Origin: Crenothrix polyspora
GTDB lineage: Bacteria > Pseudomonadota > Gammaproteobacteria > Methylococcales > Methylomonadaceae
NCBI GenBank assembly: GCA_945903675.1
Contig: CAMDOP010000003.1
Span: forward strand, 1 to 36,614
Reading direction: 5' to 3'
Length of the DNA: 36,614 nt
In this document: positions 1,005-32,362 of the stretch, one piece after another
Layout of the letters: each line of letters starts with the position of its first letter
Position numbering within the stretch: position 1 is the stretch's first letter
Notes under the pieces: model-generated
Databases searched by the model: none
The model's input: the letters and a program-made list of their open reading frames with translations, nothing else
What the model was told of the DNA's origin: nothing
Program-made: the position numbers and the translations under genes

Positions 1005-1202
1005 GCGTTAGATAAAGCTTTTAATTGGCTAGAATGAATGTAGGCGAAAGACTCAAGGCAAAAGGCAAAATCTAAGAGGCTAGCAACTTATGGCGAGTAG
1101 GCTTAGTCTTTAGTCTTTCGTCTTTCGCCATTTGTCTGCAACTTAGAGAGCCTTATCTAATAGTGAACGATTAAGCTATATTTACCGCCTTAAATTGCTA
1201 GC
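1005..1202 (-). repeat. Copy D of a dispersed MITE-like palindromic element (diverged; left end uncertain)
   Basis: GCTAGCAACTTATGGCG...CTTTCGTCTTTCGCCATTTGTCTGC...ACCGCCTTAAATTGCTAGC aligns with the reverse complement of the 14119-14322 copy. Confidence 0.7.
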
Positions 1203-1207
1203 CTAAC

Positions 1208-8282: not shown

Positions 8283-9443
8283 ATGCCACAACAAACAAAA
8301 ACACCCTTCTTATGCAGCCTGCTAATAACGGCTCTATTAAGTGCTTGCTCGGACCCAATCGATAAGACTAAAGAAATCTCCAAGATCGCAGCCATACCGG
8401 GCAAAGTGTTTTTGGCCGAGGACTCACCCAAAAAAGCCTACATCAAAACAGCAACACTAGCGCTAAGCCAACACCCATTGCTAGAGCCATTGGTTGGCAA
8501 AATTAGCTATGACGAAAAACTGACTTCACGTATCAGTTCGCCCGTTGCTGGCCGCGTAATTGCCACACCGATAACCTTAGGTACGCCGGTACAAACAGGT
8601 GCTACTTTATTAGAACTCGATAGTCCAGATGTGGCCTCTGCCGAAGCTGACTATGGCGCTGCTGAAGCCGATTACACGCTGGCCCAAAAAGCCTGGGATC
8701 GCCAGCAAGAGCTTTATGCTGGCAAAGCTATTTCTCAAAAGGAGTTAGAGCAGGCACAAGATGCTCTAAATGGCGCTCGCAGCGCACTGCAACGTGCTCA
8801 GCAACGTTTAAAAAATCTACATATCAACGCAGGTCAAAGTGATGGTCACTTTAGCTTGCGCTCGCCCGTCTCTGGCATAGTGGTTGAACGCAACGTTAAC
8901 CCAGGCATGGAAGTACGTCCTGATCTTGATAAGCCATTATATGTAGTATCCGATTTAAAAAAACTAACCCTACTCATGGAGGTTTTTGAAGTTAACCTCA
9001 GCAAAATAAAATTAGGGCAAAAACTCTCGGTTTCAGTTCCAGCCTTTCCCGGAGTCGTCTTTCCCGCCAGCGTACAATATATTGCTCAAATACTCGATGA
9101 AAACACGCGTACAGTCCAAGTACGTTGCGAACTACCCAATACTGATGGCCGCTTATTACCCGGCATGTACGCTACGATTAATGTTAACAGCGACCCTGAA
9201 GACCAAGCTATCGTCCTTCCTTTAACGGCAGTATTTACTGAAGGCGATGCTGATTATGTATTTATTGCACTTGAAGATCATCACTACAAACAACGTCTAG
9301 TTAATATTGGTTTGCGGCTTAAAGATAAAGCCATCATTACCGGTGGATTACAAGCTAACGAACAAGTCGTGATTGAAGGCGCATTAACACTGCGTGCTGA
9401 AGAAGCCGTCGAAATCGACAGTAATAGCAATAAAGCAAACTGA
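8283..9443 (+). CDS. Efflux RND transporter periplasmic adaptor (CzcB-like), predicted lipoprotein
   Basis: Lipobox LLSACSD; SSPVAGRVIATPITLGTPVQTGATLLELDSPD; LRSPVSGIVVERNVNPGMEVRPD. Confidence 0.9.
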   Translation: MPQQTKTPFLCSLLITALLSACSDPIDKTKEISKIAAIPGKVFLAEDSPKKAYIKTATLALSQHPLLEPLVGKISYDEKLTSRISSPVAGRVIATPITLGTPVQTGATLLELDSPDVASAEADYGAAEADYTLAQKAWDRQQELYAGKAISQKELEQAQDALNGARSALQRAQQRLKNLHINAGQSDGHFSLRSPVSGIVVERNVNPGMEVRPDLDKPLYVVSDLKKLTLLMEVFEVNLSKIKLGQKLSVSVPAFPGVVFPASVQYIAQILDENTRTVQVRCELPNTDGRLLPGMYATINVNSDPEDQAIVLPLTAVFTEGDADYVFIALEDHHYKQRLVNIGLRLKDKAIITGGLQANEQVVIEGALTLRAEEAVEIDSNSNKAN

Positions 9444-9453
9444 GCATACCAAA

Positions 9454-12400
9454 ATGATTGAACGTATTATTGCATTTTGTCTACAGCAACGACTGATGGT
9501 AATTGGTGCCACCCTGACCATTGCTATTTCTGGGATCATCGCTTTTGAAAACCTACCTGTACAAGCCTTTCCTGACGTACAAAACGTCTTCGTACAAGTG
9601 GTCACTCAATACCCCGGACAAGCACCAGAAGAAGTAGAAAAGCTGATTTCATTGCCTATTGAGCGGGTCATGAATGGTGTGCCACATTTAATGAATATGC
9701 GCTCGGTATCTATCTTTGGACTCTCCGTCGTCACCCTAACCTTCGACGATAGCGCAGAAGATTATTTTTCACGGCAACAAGTGTTAGAACGCTTACATAA
9801 CGCTGATATTCCCTCTGATACCAAGCCACAACTTGGCCCATTATCTACCGGTGTCGGTGAAATATTACGCTATGTAATCGATGCTAAAAATTTGTCTTTA
9901 GTTGAACAGCGAGCACTTCAAGACTGGGTCATTGAACCTAAGATACGTACCATGCAAGGGGTTGCCGACGTAGTTTCCTACGGTGGTGGCGTTAAAGAAT
10001 ATAAAGTTGCTGCCAAACCCGATCGACTCAGAAATTTCAATATTAGTCTCCAACAAGTATTTGATGCGATAGCGGCTAATAATAACAATACAGGAGGGGG
10101 CTATATAGAACATGGCGATGAAGCCTTAGTTGTCAGAGGTATAGGTTTATTAAAGTCTGCCGATGAAATCGGCGAAATTGTTGTCAATACTAACGATGGC
10201 GTGCCCATACGTATTAAAGATGTCGCTGATATTAGCGTTGGCCCGCAACCGCGCACCGGCATGGTAGGCATGAACCAGCGCGATGATGTCGTTGAAGGCA
10301 TCGTATTATTAATCAAAGGCCGTGATGCGGTTGAGGTACTTAATGGCGTCAAACAAAAAATCGCAGAGCTGAACGACTTTGGTCTACCGCCCGGCGTACA
10401 AATTAGACCTATTTATGACCGCACAGAATTAGTCGGTCATACCATACATACCGTTGAACACAATATGCTGGAAGGCGCCGTGCTGATTTTGATCATCTTA
10501 ATGGTCTTTCTAAGGCGCTTTGTAGCAGCACTTTTAGTCACCTTGATTATTCCTTTGTCTTTATTATTCGCCTTTATTCTGGTCGATCTAGGCGGAATCT
10601 CTGCCAACTTGATTTCACTGGGCGCGATTGACTTTGGTATTATCGTCGATAGTGCAGTGGTCTTAGTTGAAGCCGTTATGGTACAGGTTACCTTAGATTT
10701 ACAACGTAATGTTGACATGCGCACTATGCGGCAAACGCTGCTTATTACAGCAACAGAAATGGGTAGACCTATCCTATTTTCAAAAGCCATTATCATCACT
10801 GCTTTTTTACCTATCTTTACTTTTCAACGCGTAGAAGCCAAAATTTTCTCACCCATGGCTTTTACCCTGAGCTTTGCACTGGTCGCTTCAATGCTATTCA
10901 GTCTAACTTTTGTGCCAGCGATGCTAACTTATTTATTGGGACCAAAATTAGCCGAAACACACAACCCCCTAGTTCAGGGCATGGAGCACCATTACCGACG
11001 TCTACTGGAATGGGTACTTAAACATGCACGCGCGGTTTTTATAACGGCCGTCATCGCATTACTATTAAGTTTTATGTCGGTAAAATTAATAGGCACCGAA
11101 TTTATGCCTAAGTTAGACGAAGGTAATATTTGGCTGACCATCACTTTACCTACACCCGTTTCACTCACGACAGCTAAGGAACTAGAGCGTGAAGTGCGAG
11201 AAAAGTTAGAAAAATTTTCTGAAGCTAAAATGGTCTTAACCCAACTAGGTAGACCTGAAGATGGCACAGATCCCAAAGGCTTTAATAATTTAGAAGTTTT
11301 AATCGATCTAAATTCCAAAGACACTTGGCGTTATAAGAAAAAAGATCAGCTAGTACAAGCGATGGATAAAGAACTCGCTATTTTTCCAGGCATACTCACT
11401 AACTTCTCACAGGTTATACAAGATAACGTTGAGGAAGCCATTTCGGGCGTTAAAGGTGAAATTGCTATTAAAATATTCGGCAGTGACTTAAAAACACTAC
11501 AAGACAAAGCCGATCAGGTAACTCGAATTCTTGCCTCGATACAGGGCGCTACTGATGTGGCCGCCGAACAGCAAGCTGGATTAGCACAGGTCATGGTTGA
11601 TATTGACCGTGCCAAAGTATCGCGTTACGGTATTAATGTTGCTGATGTTGAAGCTGTCATGGAAATGGGTATGGGCGGCAAAGCCGCTTCGCAGTTCTTA
11701 GAAGGTGAGCGTCGTTTTGATATCACGCTACGTTATGACGAAGACGCACGTAACTCGGTATCAGGCTTAGAAAACTTAACAGTACTGTCTCCAGGTGGTC
11801 AGCGCATTCCATTATCGGAACTGGCGACTATTAAAATTAATCAAGGCGCTTCCAGAATCAGCCGCGAAGATAATATGCGTCGCATTGCTATCAAATGTAA
11901 TTTGATAGATAGAGACCAAGGCAGCTTCGTCGCTGAGGCACAACAAAAAGTAGCCGCTCAAGTCGATATGCCACCGGGCTATCATATCGTTTGGAGTGGT
12001 CAATTTGAAAACCAACAACGCGCCATGAAGCGCTTAGCCGTTATTGTCGCTATCAGCTTAGGCCTCATATTTGTGTTGTTGTTCTGGGCTTTCATGTCCA
12101 TTAAGAATGCATTGCTCATACTCATGAACGTGCCTTTCGCTATGATCGGTGGTATTCTCATTCTGCTTGCTACGGGGATTAATCTCAGTGTCTCCGCAGC
12201 CGTCGGTTTTATCGCGCTATTTGGTATCGCCGTACAAAATGGGGTTATTCTTGTCTCGCAATTAAACAAGCTTCGACGAGAAGGGCAATGCTTACATGAT
12301 GCCATCGTCAACGGCTCAGTCAGTCGTCTTAGACCCGTCGTCATGACCGCATTGATGGCAATGCTAGGTTTATTTCCTGCCGCACTCTCAACCAGCGTCG

Positions 12401-12522
12401 GATCAGAAACAGCAAAACCTTTTGCTGTTGTTATTATCGGTGGATTATTAACGGCAACCTTATTGACGTTAACCTTGTTGCCAGCACTTTATCGCTATTT
12501 TGCAGAACCTGACGAACCATAA
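9454..12522 (+). CDS. CusA/CzcA-family heavy-metal efflux RND transporter (start moved from 9394 to the ATG at 9454)
   Basis: MIERIIAFCLQQRLMV start after the upstream stop; PVQAFPDVQNVFVQV; TM4 motif DFGIIVDSAVVLVEA of HME-RND proteins; about 1022 aa. Confidence 0.94.
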   Translation: MIERIIAFCLQQRLMVIGATLTIAISGIIAFENLPVQAFPDVQNVFVQVVTQYPGQAPEEVEKLISLPIERVMNGVPHLMNMRSVSIFGLSVVTLTFDDSAEDYFSRQQVLERLHNADIPSDTKPQLGPLSTGVGEILRYVIDAKNLSLVEQRALQDWVIEPKIRTMQGVADVVSYGGGVKEYKVAAKPDRLRNFNISLQQVFDAIAANNNNTGGGYIEHGDEALVVRGIGLLKSADEIGEIVVNTNDGVPIRIKDVADISVGPQPRTGMVGMNQRDDVVEGIVLLIKGRDAVEVLNGVKQKIAELNDFGLPPGVQIRPIYDRTELVGHTIHTVEHNMLEGAVLILIILMVFLRRFVAALLVTLIIPLSLLFAFILVDLGGISANLISLGAIDFGIIVDSAVVLVEAVMVQVTLDLQRNVDMRTMRQTLLITATEMGRPILFSKAIIITAFLPIFTFQRVEAKIFSPMAFTLSFALVASMLFSLTFVPAMLTYLLGPKLAETHNPLVQGMEHHYRRLLEWVLKHARAVFITAVIALLLSFMSVKLIGTEFMPKLDEGNIWLTITLPTPVSLTTAKELEREVREKLEKFSEAKMVLTQLGRPEDGTDPKGFNNLEVLIDLNSKDTWRYKKKDQLVQAMDKELAIFPGILTNFSQVIQDNVEEAISGVKGEIAIKIFGSDLKTLQDKADQVTRILASIQGATDVAAEQQAGLAQVMVDIDRAKVSRYGINVADVEAVMEMGMGGKAASQFLEGERRFDITLRYDEDARNSVSGLENLTVLSPGGQRIPLSELATIKINQGASRISREDNMRRIAIKCNLIDRDQGSFVAEAQQKVAAQVDMPPGYHIVWSGQFENQQRAMKRLAVIVAISLGLIFVLLFWAFMSIKNALLILMNVPFAMIGGILILLATGINLSVSAAVGFIALFGIAVQNGVILVSQLNKLRREGQCLHDAIVNGSVSRLRPVVMTALMAMLGLFPAALSTSVGSETAKPFAVVIIGGLLTATLLTLTLLPALYRYFAEPDEP

Positions 12523-14015: not shown

Positions 14016-14118
14016 AGGGTCGTCGTTATCATGTTGCGGGTAATGATTGATATTTTAAACCAAGCTTTTAAAATCATATCACGTTTAAATTTTGATAATG
14101 GTGTCCCCCCCTACGATT

Positions 14119-14322
14119 GCTACCAATTTAAGGCGGGACACTCACTCACTTAATTATTTACTTTTAGACAGGGTTCTCTTAAGCGCAGACAAAGGACGAA
14201 AGGCGAAGGGCAAAGGGTTAAGCTTAGTGCCTGTCACGCCTTAAGTTGCTAGCCTCCTAGACTTAGTCTTTCGCCCTGAGCCTTTTGTCTGCACTGAAAC
14301 TGTCCTGCTTTAAGTTGGTAGC
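14119..14322 (+). repeat. Copy A (used here as reference) of the dispersed MITE-like palindromic element, about 204 bp
   Basis: Ends are inverted: GCTACCAATTTAAGGCGGGACA ... TGTCCTGCTTTAAGTTGGTAGC; interior arms GCAGACAAAGGACGAAAGGCGAAGGGC / GCCCTGAGCCTTTTGTCTGC form an imperfect palindrome. Confidence 0.88.
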
Positions 14323-14326
14323 CCGA

Positions 14327-25296: not shown

Positions 25297-28200
25297 ATGG
25301 GGGGTCTTATCCGTTTTGCGCTCAGCCAGCGCTTACTCATGATGATTGCCGTACTGCTGCTTTCAGGTGCTGGTTATTACGCTTTTAAAAATATTCCTAT
25401 CGATGCCTTTCCTGAAGTGTCACCGACACAGGTAAAGATCATCGTTAAAGCGGCTGGCATGACCCCTGAAGAAGTGGAGGCCCGTATTACAGCCCCCATT
25501 GAAATTGAACTGCTAGGCATTCCCCATCAGACCATGCTGCGTTCTATTGCCAAATATGCCTTAACCGATATTACCGTTGATTTTTCTGAAGGCACTGATA
25601 TTTATTGGGCCCGTCAGCAAATTGCCGAACGCCTCAATTCCTTATGGACTAATTTACCTGCTGGAGTACAAGGTGGCATAGCCCCAATGACTACGCCCTT
25701 GGGTGAAATGTTTATGTTTTCTATAGAAGGCGGCGACTTAAGCCTCATGGAGCGCCGAGATTTACTGGATTGGGTCATACGTCCGGCACTGAGAACGGTT
25801 TCTGGAGTCGCTGATGTTAATTCCTTAGGCGGGTTGGTGAGAAGTTTTGAAGTCACGCCAGATAATACTAGGCTGACTGCCAGAGGCATCAGCATAGAAA
25901 AACTCATGGCGACCTTGCAAAACAATAACCGTAATGACGGTGCAGGTCGGATGAGTGATGGTGAAGAAGCCCTCATTGTGCGTGCAGAAGGCCGCATTAA
26001 AACCTTGGCAGATGTCAGTACGTTAGTCGTCGATAATAAAAATGGCATTCCTATTACCGTTGCTGATGTTGCCGATGTGAATATCGGCGCCTTAACACGC
26101 TATGGAGCCGTCAGTAAGAATGGTGAAGGTGAATCAGTAACAGGGTTGGTACTGAGTTTACGAGGTGCTAACGCCAGAAAAACCATCACCGGAATAGAGC
26201 AGAAACTTGCGCAAATTAGCCCTAGCTTTCCTAAAGGCGTCACTGCCCAAGTCTTCTACAATCGTGGCGACTTAGTCGACAAAGCAGTCAGCACGGTTTT
26301 ACATGCTTTACTGGAAGCGGTTGCCTTGGTCATCGTCTTATTGATTTTATTTTTAGGTAATTTACGTGCAGCCTTAGTTGTGGCTTTAGCCCTGCCACTA
26401 GCCGCGCTATTTACCTTTATATTAATGAAAACCATGGACATGTCAGCAAACTTGATGAGTTTGGGCGGCTTGGCTATTGCCATTGGTATGCTGGTCGATG
26501 CCGCAGTCGTGGTGGTTGAAAATGTCATTACCCATTTAGCCAACGTCGAAAAAGCCCAACGTTTACCTCGACTACATGTCATTTATAGAGCAACCTGTGA
26601 AGTGGCGGGCCCTGTTACTTCTGGTATATTAATTATAATTATTGTTTTTTTACCCTTGCTTACCCTGCAAGGCTTAGAAGGCAAATTATTTACACCTGTT
26701 GCTTTAACGATCGTCTTTGCGCTCAGCGGTTCGTTGATCTTGTCACTCACTGTAATCCCTGTGCTAGCCTCTTATTTGCTTAAAGAAGTCTCACACGAAG
26801 AACCATGGCTGCCCAGACAATTACAAAAAGCTTATCAACCCGCTTTATTATGGTGCTTAGCGCATAGTCAACGCGTATTTACGGCAGCAGGAATCTTATT
26901 GGCCATCACGGTACTGGTCTTTACCCAAATAGGCAGTACCTTTATGCCGACTATGGATGAAGGTGATATTATTTTACAGCTAGAGAAATTACCGTCGATC
27001 ACTTTGGCACAATCCGTCGCCTTAGATGAGCAGGTACAAAAAAATCTGCTTAAACATATCCCAGAAATAGCCACTATTGTTTCTCGAGTCGGCGCGGATG
27101 AACTCGGTCTTGATCCTATGGGTTTAAATGAAACCGATACTTTCTTAGTACTTAAACCTAAAGATCAATGGCGTATGGCGACTAAAGATGCTTTGATCGA
27201 AGAAATACGCAAGATCATGGCTCAAACCCCTGGCATCGCTTTCGGCTTTACCCAACCCATAGAAATGCGTGTATCAGAAATGCTCACAGGGACACGCGGT
27301 GATGTCGCTGTTAAATTATTCGGTACCGACCTAGCCGTTTTAAATGAGAAAGCTAATGCCATTGCCGAAACCTTAAGGCATATAAAAGGCTCTAGCGATG
27401 TCTTTGCCAAACAAAATGATGGTATGCAGTTTTTATCGGTAAGTATCAATAAATTGGCTGCGGGTCGTCTAGGTCTGGATAGCGACAGCATAGAAACACT
27501 ATTACGCGCCCAAATTGAAGGCTTAAACTTAGGCATCGTACAAGAAGGCATTAAACGTACACCGTTGATTTTACGTGGCAGGAGCAATACCGCTAATTTT
27601 GACGATCTACAAATTAGCTTAGCTAATGGCAGTCATGTGCCGGTATCGACCATAGCCACTATAAAAAAAGTTGAGGGCGTGGTCTCTGTTAGTCGAGAGC
27701 GTGGACAACGTTTTGTAGTGATCCGCAGTAATGTACAAGATCGTGATTTAGTCGGCTTTGTCGAAGAAGCGCGTAAAGCTGTTGCCGAAAAGGTAGACTT
27801 GCCCACCGGCTATACGCTTGAGTTTGGTGGTCAATTTGAAAACCAACAACGTGCTGCAGCCACACTGTCCTTAGTGGTGCCTATTTCCCTAGTGTTGATA
27901 TTTTTGCTGTTGTTTTCAACCTTCGGCTCAGTACGTCAGGCAGCCCTAGTGCTGTCTAATATTCCTCTGGCCATGGTCGGCGGGGTATTTGCTCTTTGGC
28001 TTTCTGGTGAATATTTATCAGTGCCGGCTTCTGTGGGCTTTATCGCTTTATTGGGTATTGCAGTCCTTAATGGCGTGGTCATGGTCAGTTATTTCAATCA
28101 ACTCAAAGCAACCGGCATGGACTTGCTACAAGTAGTCACCTTAGGCTCATCGCGACGCTTAAGACCCGTATTAATGACGGCCAGCATCGCTGCCTTTGGC

Positions 28201-28359
28201 TTAATTCCCTTGTTATTTGCCAGTGGCCCAGGTTCGGAGATTCAAAGACCCTTAGCCATCGTAGTCATTGGCGGCTTAATTTCGTCAACCTTTTTAACCT
28301 TATTCTTATTGCCGATACTATATAAACTATTCGGTTTACCTAAGGAGATAACAGCATGA
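25297..28359 (+). CDS. CusA/CzcA-family heavy-metal efflux RND transporter
   Basis: MGGLIRFALSQRLLMMIAVLLLSGAGYYAFKNIPIDAFPEVSPTQVKI; TM4 motif AIGMLVDAAVVVVENV; GFTQPIEMRVSEMLTGTRGDVAVKLFG. Confidence 0.94.
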   Translation: MGGLIRFALSQRLLMMIAVLLLSGAGYYAFKNIPIDAFPEVSPTQVKIIVKAAGMTPEEVEARITAPIEIELLGIPHQTMLRSIAKYALTDITVDFSEGTDIYWARQQIAERLNSLWTNLPAGVQGGIAPMTTPLGEMFMFSIEGGDLSLMERRDLLDWVIRPALRTVSGVADVNSLGGLVRSFEVTPDNTRLTARGISIEKLMATLQNNNRNDGAGRMSDGEEALIVRAEGRIKTLADVSTLVVDNKNGIPITVADVADVNIGALTRYGAVSKNGEGESVTGLVLSLRGANARKTITGIEQKLAQISPSFPKGVTAQVFYNRGDLVDKAVSTVLHALLEAVALVIVLLILFLGNLRAALVVALALPLAALFTFILMKTMDMSANLMSLGGLAIAIGMLVDAAVVVVENVITHLANVEKAQRLPRLHVIYRATCEVAGPVTSGILIIIIVFLPLLTLQGLEGKLFTPVALTIVFALSGSLILSLTVIPVLASYLLKEVSHEEPWLPRQLQKAYQPALLWCLAHSQRVFTAAGILLAITVLVFTQIGSTFMPTMDEGDIILQLEKLPSITLAQSVALDEQVQKNLLKHIPEIATIVSRVGADELGLDPMGLNETDTFLVLKPKDQWRMATKDALIEEIRKIMAQTPGIAFGFTQPIEMRVSEMLTGTRGDVAVKLFGTDLAVLNEKANAIAETLRHIKGSSDVFAKQNDGMQFLSVSINKLAAGRLGLDSDSIETLLRAQIEGLNLGIVQEGIKRTPLILRGRSNTANFDDLQISLANGSHVPVSTIATIKKVEGVVSVSRERGQRFVVIRSNVQDRDLVGFVEEARKAVAEKVDLPTGYTLEFGGQFENQQRAAATLSLVVPISLVLIFLLLFSTFGSVRQAALVLSNIPLAMVGGVFALWLSGEYLSVPASVGFIALLGIAVLNGVVMVSYFNQLKATGMDLLQVVTLGSSRRLRPVLMTASIAAFGLIPLLFASGPGSEIQRPLAIVVIGGLISSTFLTLFLLPILYKLFGLPKEITA

Positions 28360-30799: not shown

Positions 30800-30867
30800 A
30801 GATGCCTCCCCTTTAATTTGATAGGCATTGTATAGACTTATAGTTATAAGATTATTAATTTTAAAAG

Positions 30868-31069
30868 ACTACCAATTTAAGGCGGGGCATTTTAGCTTAA
30901 TCATTCACTTTTAGACAGGGTTCTCATAAGCGCAGACAAAGGACAAAAGGTGTAGGGCAAAGGGTTAAGCCTAGTACCTGCAACGCCTTAAGTTGCTAAC
31001 TTCCTAGGCTTAGTCTTTCGTCCTGAGCCTTTCGTCTTCGCTAAAGCTGTCCTGTTTTAAGTTGGTAGC
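30868..31069 (+). repeat. Copy B of the dispersed MITE-like palindromic element, about 202 bp
   Basis: ACTACCAATTTAAGGCGGGGCA ... TGTCCTGTTTTAAGTTGGTAGC; shares long exact blocks with copy A (CTTTTAGACAGGGTTCTC, AAGCGCAGACAAAGGAC, GGGCAAAGGGTTAAGC, CGCCTTAAGTTGCTA). Confidence 0.88.
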
Positions 31070-31163
31070 CTTTATACTTATTGGCGGTATTTTTTTATTA
31101 CCTAATCGATAGCTTAGCTATCTATGTTAATATTAAACGCTTACTTTTTCTTGCTGTATACCT

Positions 31164-32168: not shown

Positions 32169-32248
32169 GGCTCTAGACCTTGTAGTGCCATCACTACGCT
32201 TTGTACATTTGCAGATTAAACGGCAGGGTGAATACTTTGCGGATGTTG

Positions 32249-32335
32249 GTTACCAACTTAAAGCGGGACAGCTTCAGCGCAGACGAAAGGCTCAGGGTGA
32301 AAGATTAAGCTAGTGTCCCGTCTTTAATTGATAGC
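32249..32335 (-). repeat. Copy C of the dispersed element, internally deleted, about 87 bp
   Basis: GTTACCAACTTAAAGCGGGACAGCTTCAGCGCAGACGAAAGGCTCAGGGTGAAAGATTAAGC joined directly to AGTGTCCCGTCTTTAATTGATAGC; matches both ends of reverse-complemented copy A with the middle missing. Confidence 0.82.
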
Positions 32336-32362
32336 CCAGAGTTGATATCGTCTAAAACAACA

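Follow-up and report, generated by a model that had tools for sequence, protein, structure and literature searches.

A new MITE family in Methylobacter-clade methanotrophs and the DUF6399 insertion sequences as its probable source of transposase

The dispersed intergenic repeat found in the window, i.e., the whole analysed stretch of 36,614 nucleotides from a contig of Crenothrix polyspora, is a MITE and represents a new family of this known kind of element. This identity accounts for a repeat that occurs in many copies between the genes of Methylobacter-clade methanotrophs, and the family is very probably supplied with transposase by DUF6399 (PF19936) insertion sequences. In the proposed mechanism, the MITE would be a non-coding passenger carrying only the two ends recognised by the transposase, and insertion sequences of about 1.6–1.8 kb would provide this enzyme, presumably of the DDE type, which has a helix-turn-helix at its N-terminus and is interrupted by a large helical insertion. 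Binding would take place at the 23-bp ends (GGCTACCAAYTTAAGNCGGGACA), whether these belong to the insertion sequence itself or to a MITE, probably through the N-terminal helix-turn-helix region of the transposase, and the bound element would be inserted at an A/T-rich 8-bp target, which would become duplicated. Judging from the sequences, the DUF6399 protein would mobilise the MITEs in trans, and by analogy with IS256 the transposition may follow a copy-out/paste-in route.

Both MITEs and DDE insertion sequences were known before, and the greater interest lies in DUF6399, a protein family found widely in bacteria that appears to be the mobility enzyme of the MITE. Its assignment as an insertion sequence transposase would provide a function for a protein family still labelled "unknown" by annotation pipelines. 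Annotation could then cover a kind of mobile DNA that has gone unrecognised in methanotrophs, cyanobacteria and sulfate reducers; the MITE/transposase pair is also open to a simple laboratory test. A broader reading, which we regard as moderately probable, is that the DUF6399 elements form a previously unnamed insertion sequence family across Gammaproteobacteria, Cyanobacteria, Desulfobacterota and further groups. Such a family would be akin to IS256 in fold yet distinct from it, and would feed several unrelated MITE subfamilies. According to this reading, some lineages may make the transposase only via a frameshift on an A7–A8 run right after the start codon, and the ~200-bp MITE, owing to its third usable inner end, could also shed half-elements.

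Copies of the element in the window

A preliminary description of the window had reported four related non-coding intergenic blocks, two of them full length, and both a profile search and the refined ends agreed with it. The copies and their main features are as follows:

14118..14323, plus strand: full-length MITE copy of 206 bp, the first base being T, not G
14118..14140, plus strand: left 23-bp terminal inverted repeat (TIR); bases 2–23 identical at 21 of 22 positions to one insertion sequence end from genome G066
14232..14254, minus strand: third TIR-like copy inside the element, GTCACGCCTTAAGTTGCTAGCC, which can serve as an end judging by the half-element L075
14301..14323, minus strand: right 23-bp TIR, agreeing at 21 of 23 bases with the insertion sequence end from strain KS41
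30867..31070, plus strand: second full-length MITE copy of 204 bp, in the gap between divergent genes, upstream of a moaA-like gene
1027..1203, minus strand: diverged MITE copy of 177 bp in the opposite orientation, with one TIR decayed, starting immediately past the BacA stop codon
1208-2041, minus strand: BacA gene adjoining the MITE copy at 1027-1203
32248..32336, minus strand: internally deleted MITE of 89 bp with both TIRs kept, between convergent moaA-like and PhoU genes (equal to L004:2880-2968)

The sequence profile, for which 25 genomic copies were used, matched the window at 30869-31070 (E = 5.5e-54), 14119-14323 (E = 7e-54) and 1026-1202 on the minus strand (E = 2.5e-29), and the short copy was recovered as two half matches within 32250-32335 (1e-9 and 1e-4). 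The terminal inverted repeats were present, and the actual TIR is 23 bp long (GGCTACCAAYTTAAGNCGGGACA, beginning with GGCTACC), one base longer than described. The third TIR copy in the middle of the element (14232-14254) was absent from the earlier account. The proposed folding of the whole element as a hairpin held, with an RNA energy of −80.9 kcal/mol and z = −5.6, none of 200 shuffled sequences folding equally well. No ORF of at least 80 aa overlapped the window copies.

A clean target duplication was absent at all four window copies, which are therefore probably old. For the copy at 14118-14323, where the clean duplication is gone, the flanks read CCTACGAT and CGATTATA.

Elsewhere in the window, two long ORFs were located at 9394-12522 (1042 aa) and 25297-28359 (1020 aa), each following an ORF of about 385 aa. 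By size and arrangement they look like parts of two RND efflux systems.

Copy number and genomic setting

The source genome (G000) is an incomplete assembly of 3.64 Mb in 482 contigs. BLASTN, which had been suggested as a check, returned at least 43 matches to the element in this genome and further copies in relatives. The profile, a sequence-only search, detected at least 42 distinct places at E ≤ 4e-35 and at least 144 matches at E ≤ 1e-3, where one palindromic element can match both strands. The high genome-wide copy number inferred earlier from the window held in part: copies number in the dozens, and the window is richer than average, its four copies within 36.6 kb being a local cluster. 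The lack of further copies or of alignable ends, named at the outset as the outcome that would speak against a family, was clearly not what was seen: the copies numbered in the dozens and their 23-bp ends aligned.

Matches to the element were found in 13 of the 61 genomes searched, all 13 belonging to the same genus, with full-length copies in six same-genus genomes and no match in other genera or families among the 61. All 26 source-genome copies examined lay between genes or at most at the very end of a gene. The copies are often situated a few bases past a stop codon, and one copy (L008) overlaps a predicted frame.

The size of the MITEs ranges from about 80 to 210 bp. The same 23-bp ends enclose unrelated interiors at L042, L052, L086, L088, L020, L061, L065, L066, L084 and L040. 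The interiors of some subfamilies are palindromes containing TTCGACAAGCT or GTAGGTCGGG; by their sequence these look like repeats of other kinds, common in bacteria, that were captured between MITE ends.

Target duplications, empty sites and the inner end

Evidence of mobility comes from sister copies and not from the four copies in the window. Among 86 TIR pairs from the source and related genomes, 23 had a perfect 8-bp direct repeat on their two sides and a further 13 had one matching at 7/8 positions, with chance levels from mismatched flank pairs of 0.04% for 8/8 and 0.2% for 7/8. When one flank was shifted by one base, a single pair was left at 7/8 or better. The true duplicated fraction is higher, since the inner TIR gives rise to many alternative pairings among the 86. 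The duplicated eight bases are A/T-rich.

For the L002 insertion, GTTAAAGA was duplicated, and the insertion was missing from the orthologous place in the relatives G025 and G030. Both of these genomes read uninterrupted CTAAGTTAAAGATAA with a single GTTAAAGA, and the flanking BLAST matches overlapped by exactly 8 bp. The proposed comparison of orthologous empty sites accordingly yielded a single target copy in the relatives. At the place corresponding to the 14118 copy, G018 and G020 also lack the element; the intergenic DNA there was too diverged for a base-exact empty site to be obtained, and the L002 copy was used instead. At the orthologous place of the 14118 copy, G002 and G025 contain a different insertion of about 800 bp (L214:1774-2578 and L215:2706-3521), which on visual inspection resembles a small toxin-antitoxin pair.

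The L075 locus is a 126-bp element extending from the inner TIR to an outer TIR with a 7/8 duplication, which suggests that the inner TIR can be used as an end. Overlapping or nested TIRs, with the duplication around the outer unit, were observed at L058:1454-1748 (G030) and L036:1245-1656 (G016); these are apparently MITEs inserted in or fused with other MITEs.

The family is thus short, multi-copy and non-coding and has paired TIRs, a target duplication and an empty site, as expected of MITEs, and an autonomous element with matching ends exists in related genomes, not in the source assembly. Of the two identities offered in the preliminary description, that of a non-autonomous transposable element was upheld by the exact 8-bp target duplications, the orthologous empty sites and the existence of a full-length insertion sequence that shares its ends.

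Insertion sequences with the same ends

A TIR pattern search in the genus led to a decayed DUF6399 element (L068; 1053 bp between TIRs, no duplication) and to contig ends carrying a reading frame. A search with the L068 frame then gave elements of 1.6–1.7 kb that share these ends and are bounded by perfect 8-bp duplications (L091, CATTAATC; L092, GAATTACT), so that the recommended search for an insertion sequence with matching TIRs was successful in related genomes, not in the source assembly. The partner insertion sequences are about 1.6–1.8 kb long overall and contain one gene for a protein of about 540 aa. Their TIR is identical to that of the MITE at up to 23 of 23 positions. The encoded protein is a full-length member of Pfam PF19936 (DUF6399; E = 2.6e-62), described by Pfam as of "unknown function" and labelled "DUF6399 domain-containing protein" in public plasmid records. 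The L091 sequence (G031) is the same as that of L137 from Methylobacter sp. KS41, which identifies G031 as this strain; since G031 belongs to the genus of the source genome, the host is a Methylobacter-clade methanotroph.

The 3.0-Mb genome G066, from a related genus, carries DUF6399 29 times at equal top score and represents a recent insertion sequence burst (loci L105, L116, L124 and L128). Two of its copies had perfect duplications, AAATGTAA and CCATCATC, with the ends GGCTACCAATTTAAGACGGGACA and GGCTACCAACTTAAGACGGGACA. Several MITEs have 23/23 end bases in common with the G066 element and nothing else.

A scan of GTDB genomes for DUF6399 returned 80 loci; among these the end motif GG(C/G)TAnCAACnTAAGCCGGG was recognised, together with 27 perfect 8-bp duplications in all. 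In Leptolyngbya PCC 7375, 13 DUF6399 copies with duplications were located at 13 different targets, and the same end motif, again with duplications, was present at DUF6399 loci of Desulfobacter, Methylovulum, Nodosilinea, Hormoscilla and others. A strict search gave no TIR/duplication pair for the Acaryochloris and Crinalium plasmid copies or for L106.

No DUF6399 gene was found in the 482 contigs of the source assembly, so the MITEs may be stranded and immobile here, or the gene may be missing from the incomplete assembly. In the relative G017, contigs are broken at DUF6399 elements; in G025, the relative with the closest MITEs, the only DUF6399 copy found is interrupted.

The common ground of the MITE and the insertion sequence is limited to the TIRs, and the interiors differ. 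The common ends would also be expected if the MITEs were internally deleted DUF6399 elements, i.e., direct deletion derivatives of one insertion sequence. Such an origin is rather unlikely, as the MITE interior had no similarity past the ends to three DUF6399 elements and several subfamilies have unrelated interiors, which together favour the capture of foreign palindromes between the ends. The MITEs may nonetheless descend from a parent element that is now extinct. This alternative touches only the origin of the MITEs and is compatible with their supply by DUF6399 insertion sequences.

It is very improbable that the MITEs are moved by another 8-bp-duplicating transposase, for instance an enzyme of the IS1595 family. 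IS1595 elements make 8-bp duplications, a likeness to the present elements that made this family the first guess, and the source genome has two genes for the corresponding PF12762 transposase. However, matching ends were found near neither gene (one locus being closely cut by a contig end), PF12762 is not matched by DUF6399 proteins, and the elements with exactly the MITE's ends and duplications carry DUF6399 and not an IS1595 enzyme. The two IS1595-type genes of the source genome are L031 (G000:C89) and L032 (G000:C19), and one of them adjoins an integrase-like gene.

The remaining view, that the blocks are REP/BIME-like or act at the RNA level (as a terminator or mRNA stabiliser) and are kept for their hairpin, is the least credible: the hairpin is strong and the copies are intergenic, often just past stop codons, but such an origin is already refuted by the exact 8-bp target duplications and empty sites, by the near absence of covariation in RNAalifold on 25 copies (covariation term −0.24, both sides changed in three of 35 pairs) and by the lack of any Rfam match at the gathering score. 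The large REP/BIME-like family considered earlier is likewise unsupported, paired TIRs plus target duplications not being a feature of REP elements. As a secondary use, individual copies may serve as terminators.

The DUF6399 protein as a putative transposase

Residues D145, D200 and E455 and the D220xxH223 motif were invariant in all 35 DUF6399 proteins. The AlphaFold model (pLDDT 90.1) had an RNase-H/DDE topology with a helical insertion, in the order beta1-3, alpha, beta4, alpha, beta5, a long all-helical insertion and a helix with E455. PF19936, for which Pfam states no function, can on this basis be assigned as the predicted C-terminal region of a DDE transposase, within which the catalytic E lies. 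A Foldseek search against PDB placed the ISCth4 transposase first (E = 3.6e-4, TM-score 0.30–0.40), followed by retroviral integrase cores; since the TM-score is low, the match supports the fold class and not a close relationship.

ISCth4 belongs to the IS256 family (PDB 6XG8/6XGX) and is characterised by 8-bp A/T-rich duplications, a DDE triad and CxxH located 21 residues past the second D, and IS256 TIRs carry a subterminal TGTAAA (PMC7780238). The likeness of DUF6399 to this family includes the modelled RNase-H/DDE fold interrupted by a helical insertion, for which ISCth4 was the best match, the DxxH placed 20 residues past the second D in comparison with 21 for CxxH of ISCth4, and the A/T-rich 8-bp target duplications. 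A weak match to an NCBIfam IS256 variant was noticed in 10 of 35 members (best 1.6e-7). On the other hand, PF00872 (Transposase_mut) was not among the families matched by the 35 proteins, NF048019 scored 24.7 bits in the first DUF6399 member against a cut-off of 150, and the helical insertion comprises about 230 residues in the DUF6399 model and 65 in ISCth4. The TIR motif also differs, the subterminal TGTAAA being absent from the DUF6399/MITE ends GGCTACCAAYTTAAGNCGGGACA and GGGTAACAACTTAAGCCGGGA. Direct membership in IS256 is therefore unsupported in view of the missing PF00872 match, the NCBIfam score far below the cut-off and the lack of TGTAAA; the transposase has a predicted IS256-like fold yet falls outside IS256 by these sequence tests. 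As far as the literature, Pfam and NCBIfam were searched, ISfinder being left out, the DUF6399 elements are an insertion sequence family with a previously unrecognised transposase. In the literature searched, no paper naming DUF6399 was found, none of five tested end strings was printed in the context of insertion sequences, and nothing relevant was found on MITEs in Methylobacter or methanotrophs.

Comparison with other MITEs

Correia elements use TA target sites, whereas the present MITE makes 8-bp duplications. Bacterial MITEs such as Correia elements and MITEAba12 (PMC6382973) resemble the present MITE in being short, non-coding, high-copy, intergenic, TIR-bounded and hairpin-forming, and differ from it in the TIR sequence and partner transposase; the present MITE has in addition a third internal TIR. 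The Thiomargarita MITEs (PMC4853749) were set aside on account of their 10-bp or TATAG direct repeats, not 8-bp ones.

Start of the DUF6399 gene

At the start of the DUF6399 gene in L105 (287-550), L133, L137, L140 and L146, the only sensible ATG (ATGACTAAAAAAAC or similar) was one frame off relative to the conserved N-terminal helix-turn-helix. An A7–A8 run lies between the two in these five loci, and a programmed frameshift at the gene start is possible from the sequence. No such offset exists in L143, L151 or the cyanobacterial copies, where the ATG and the helix-turn-helix share one frame.
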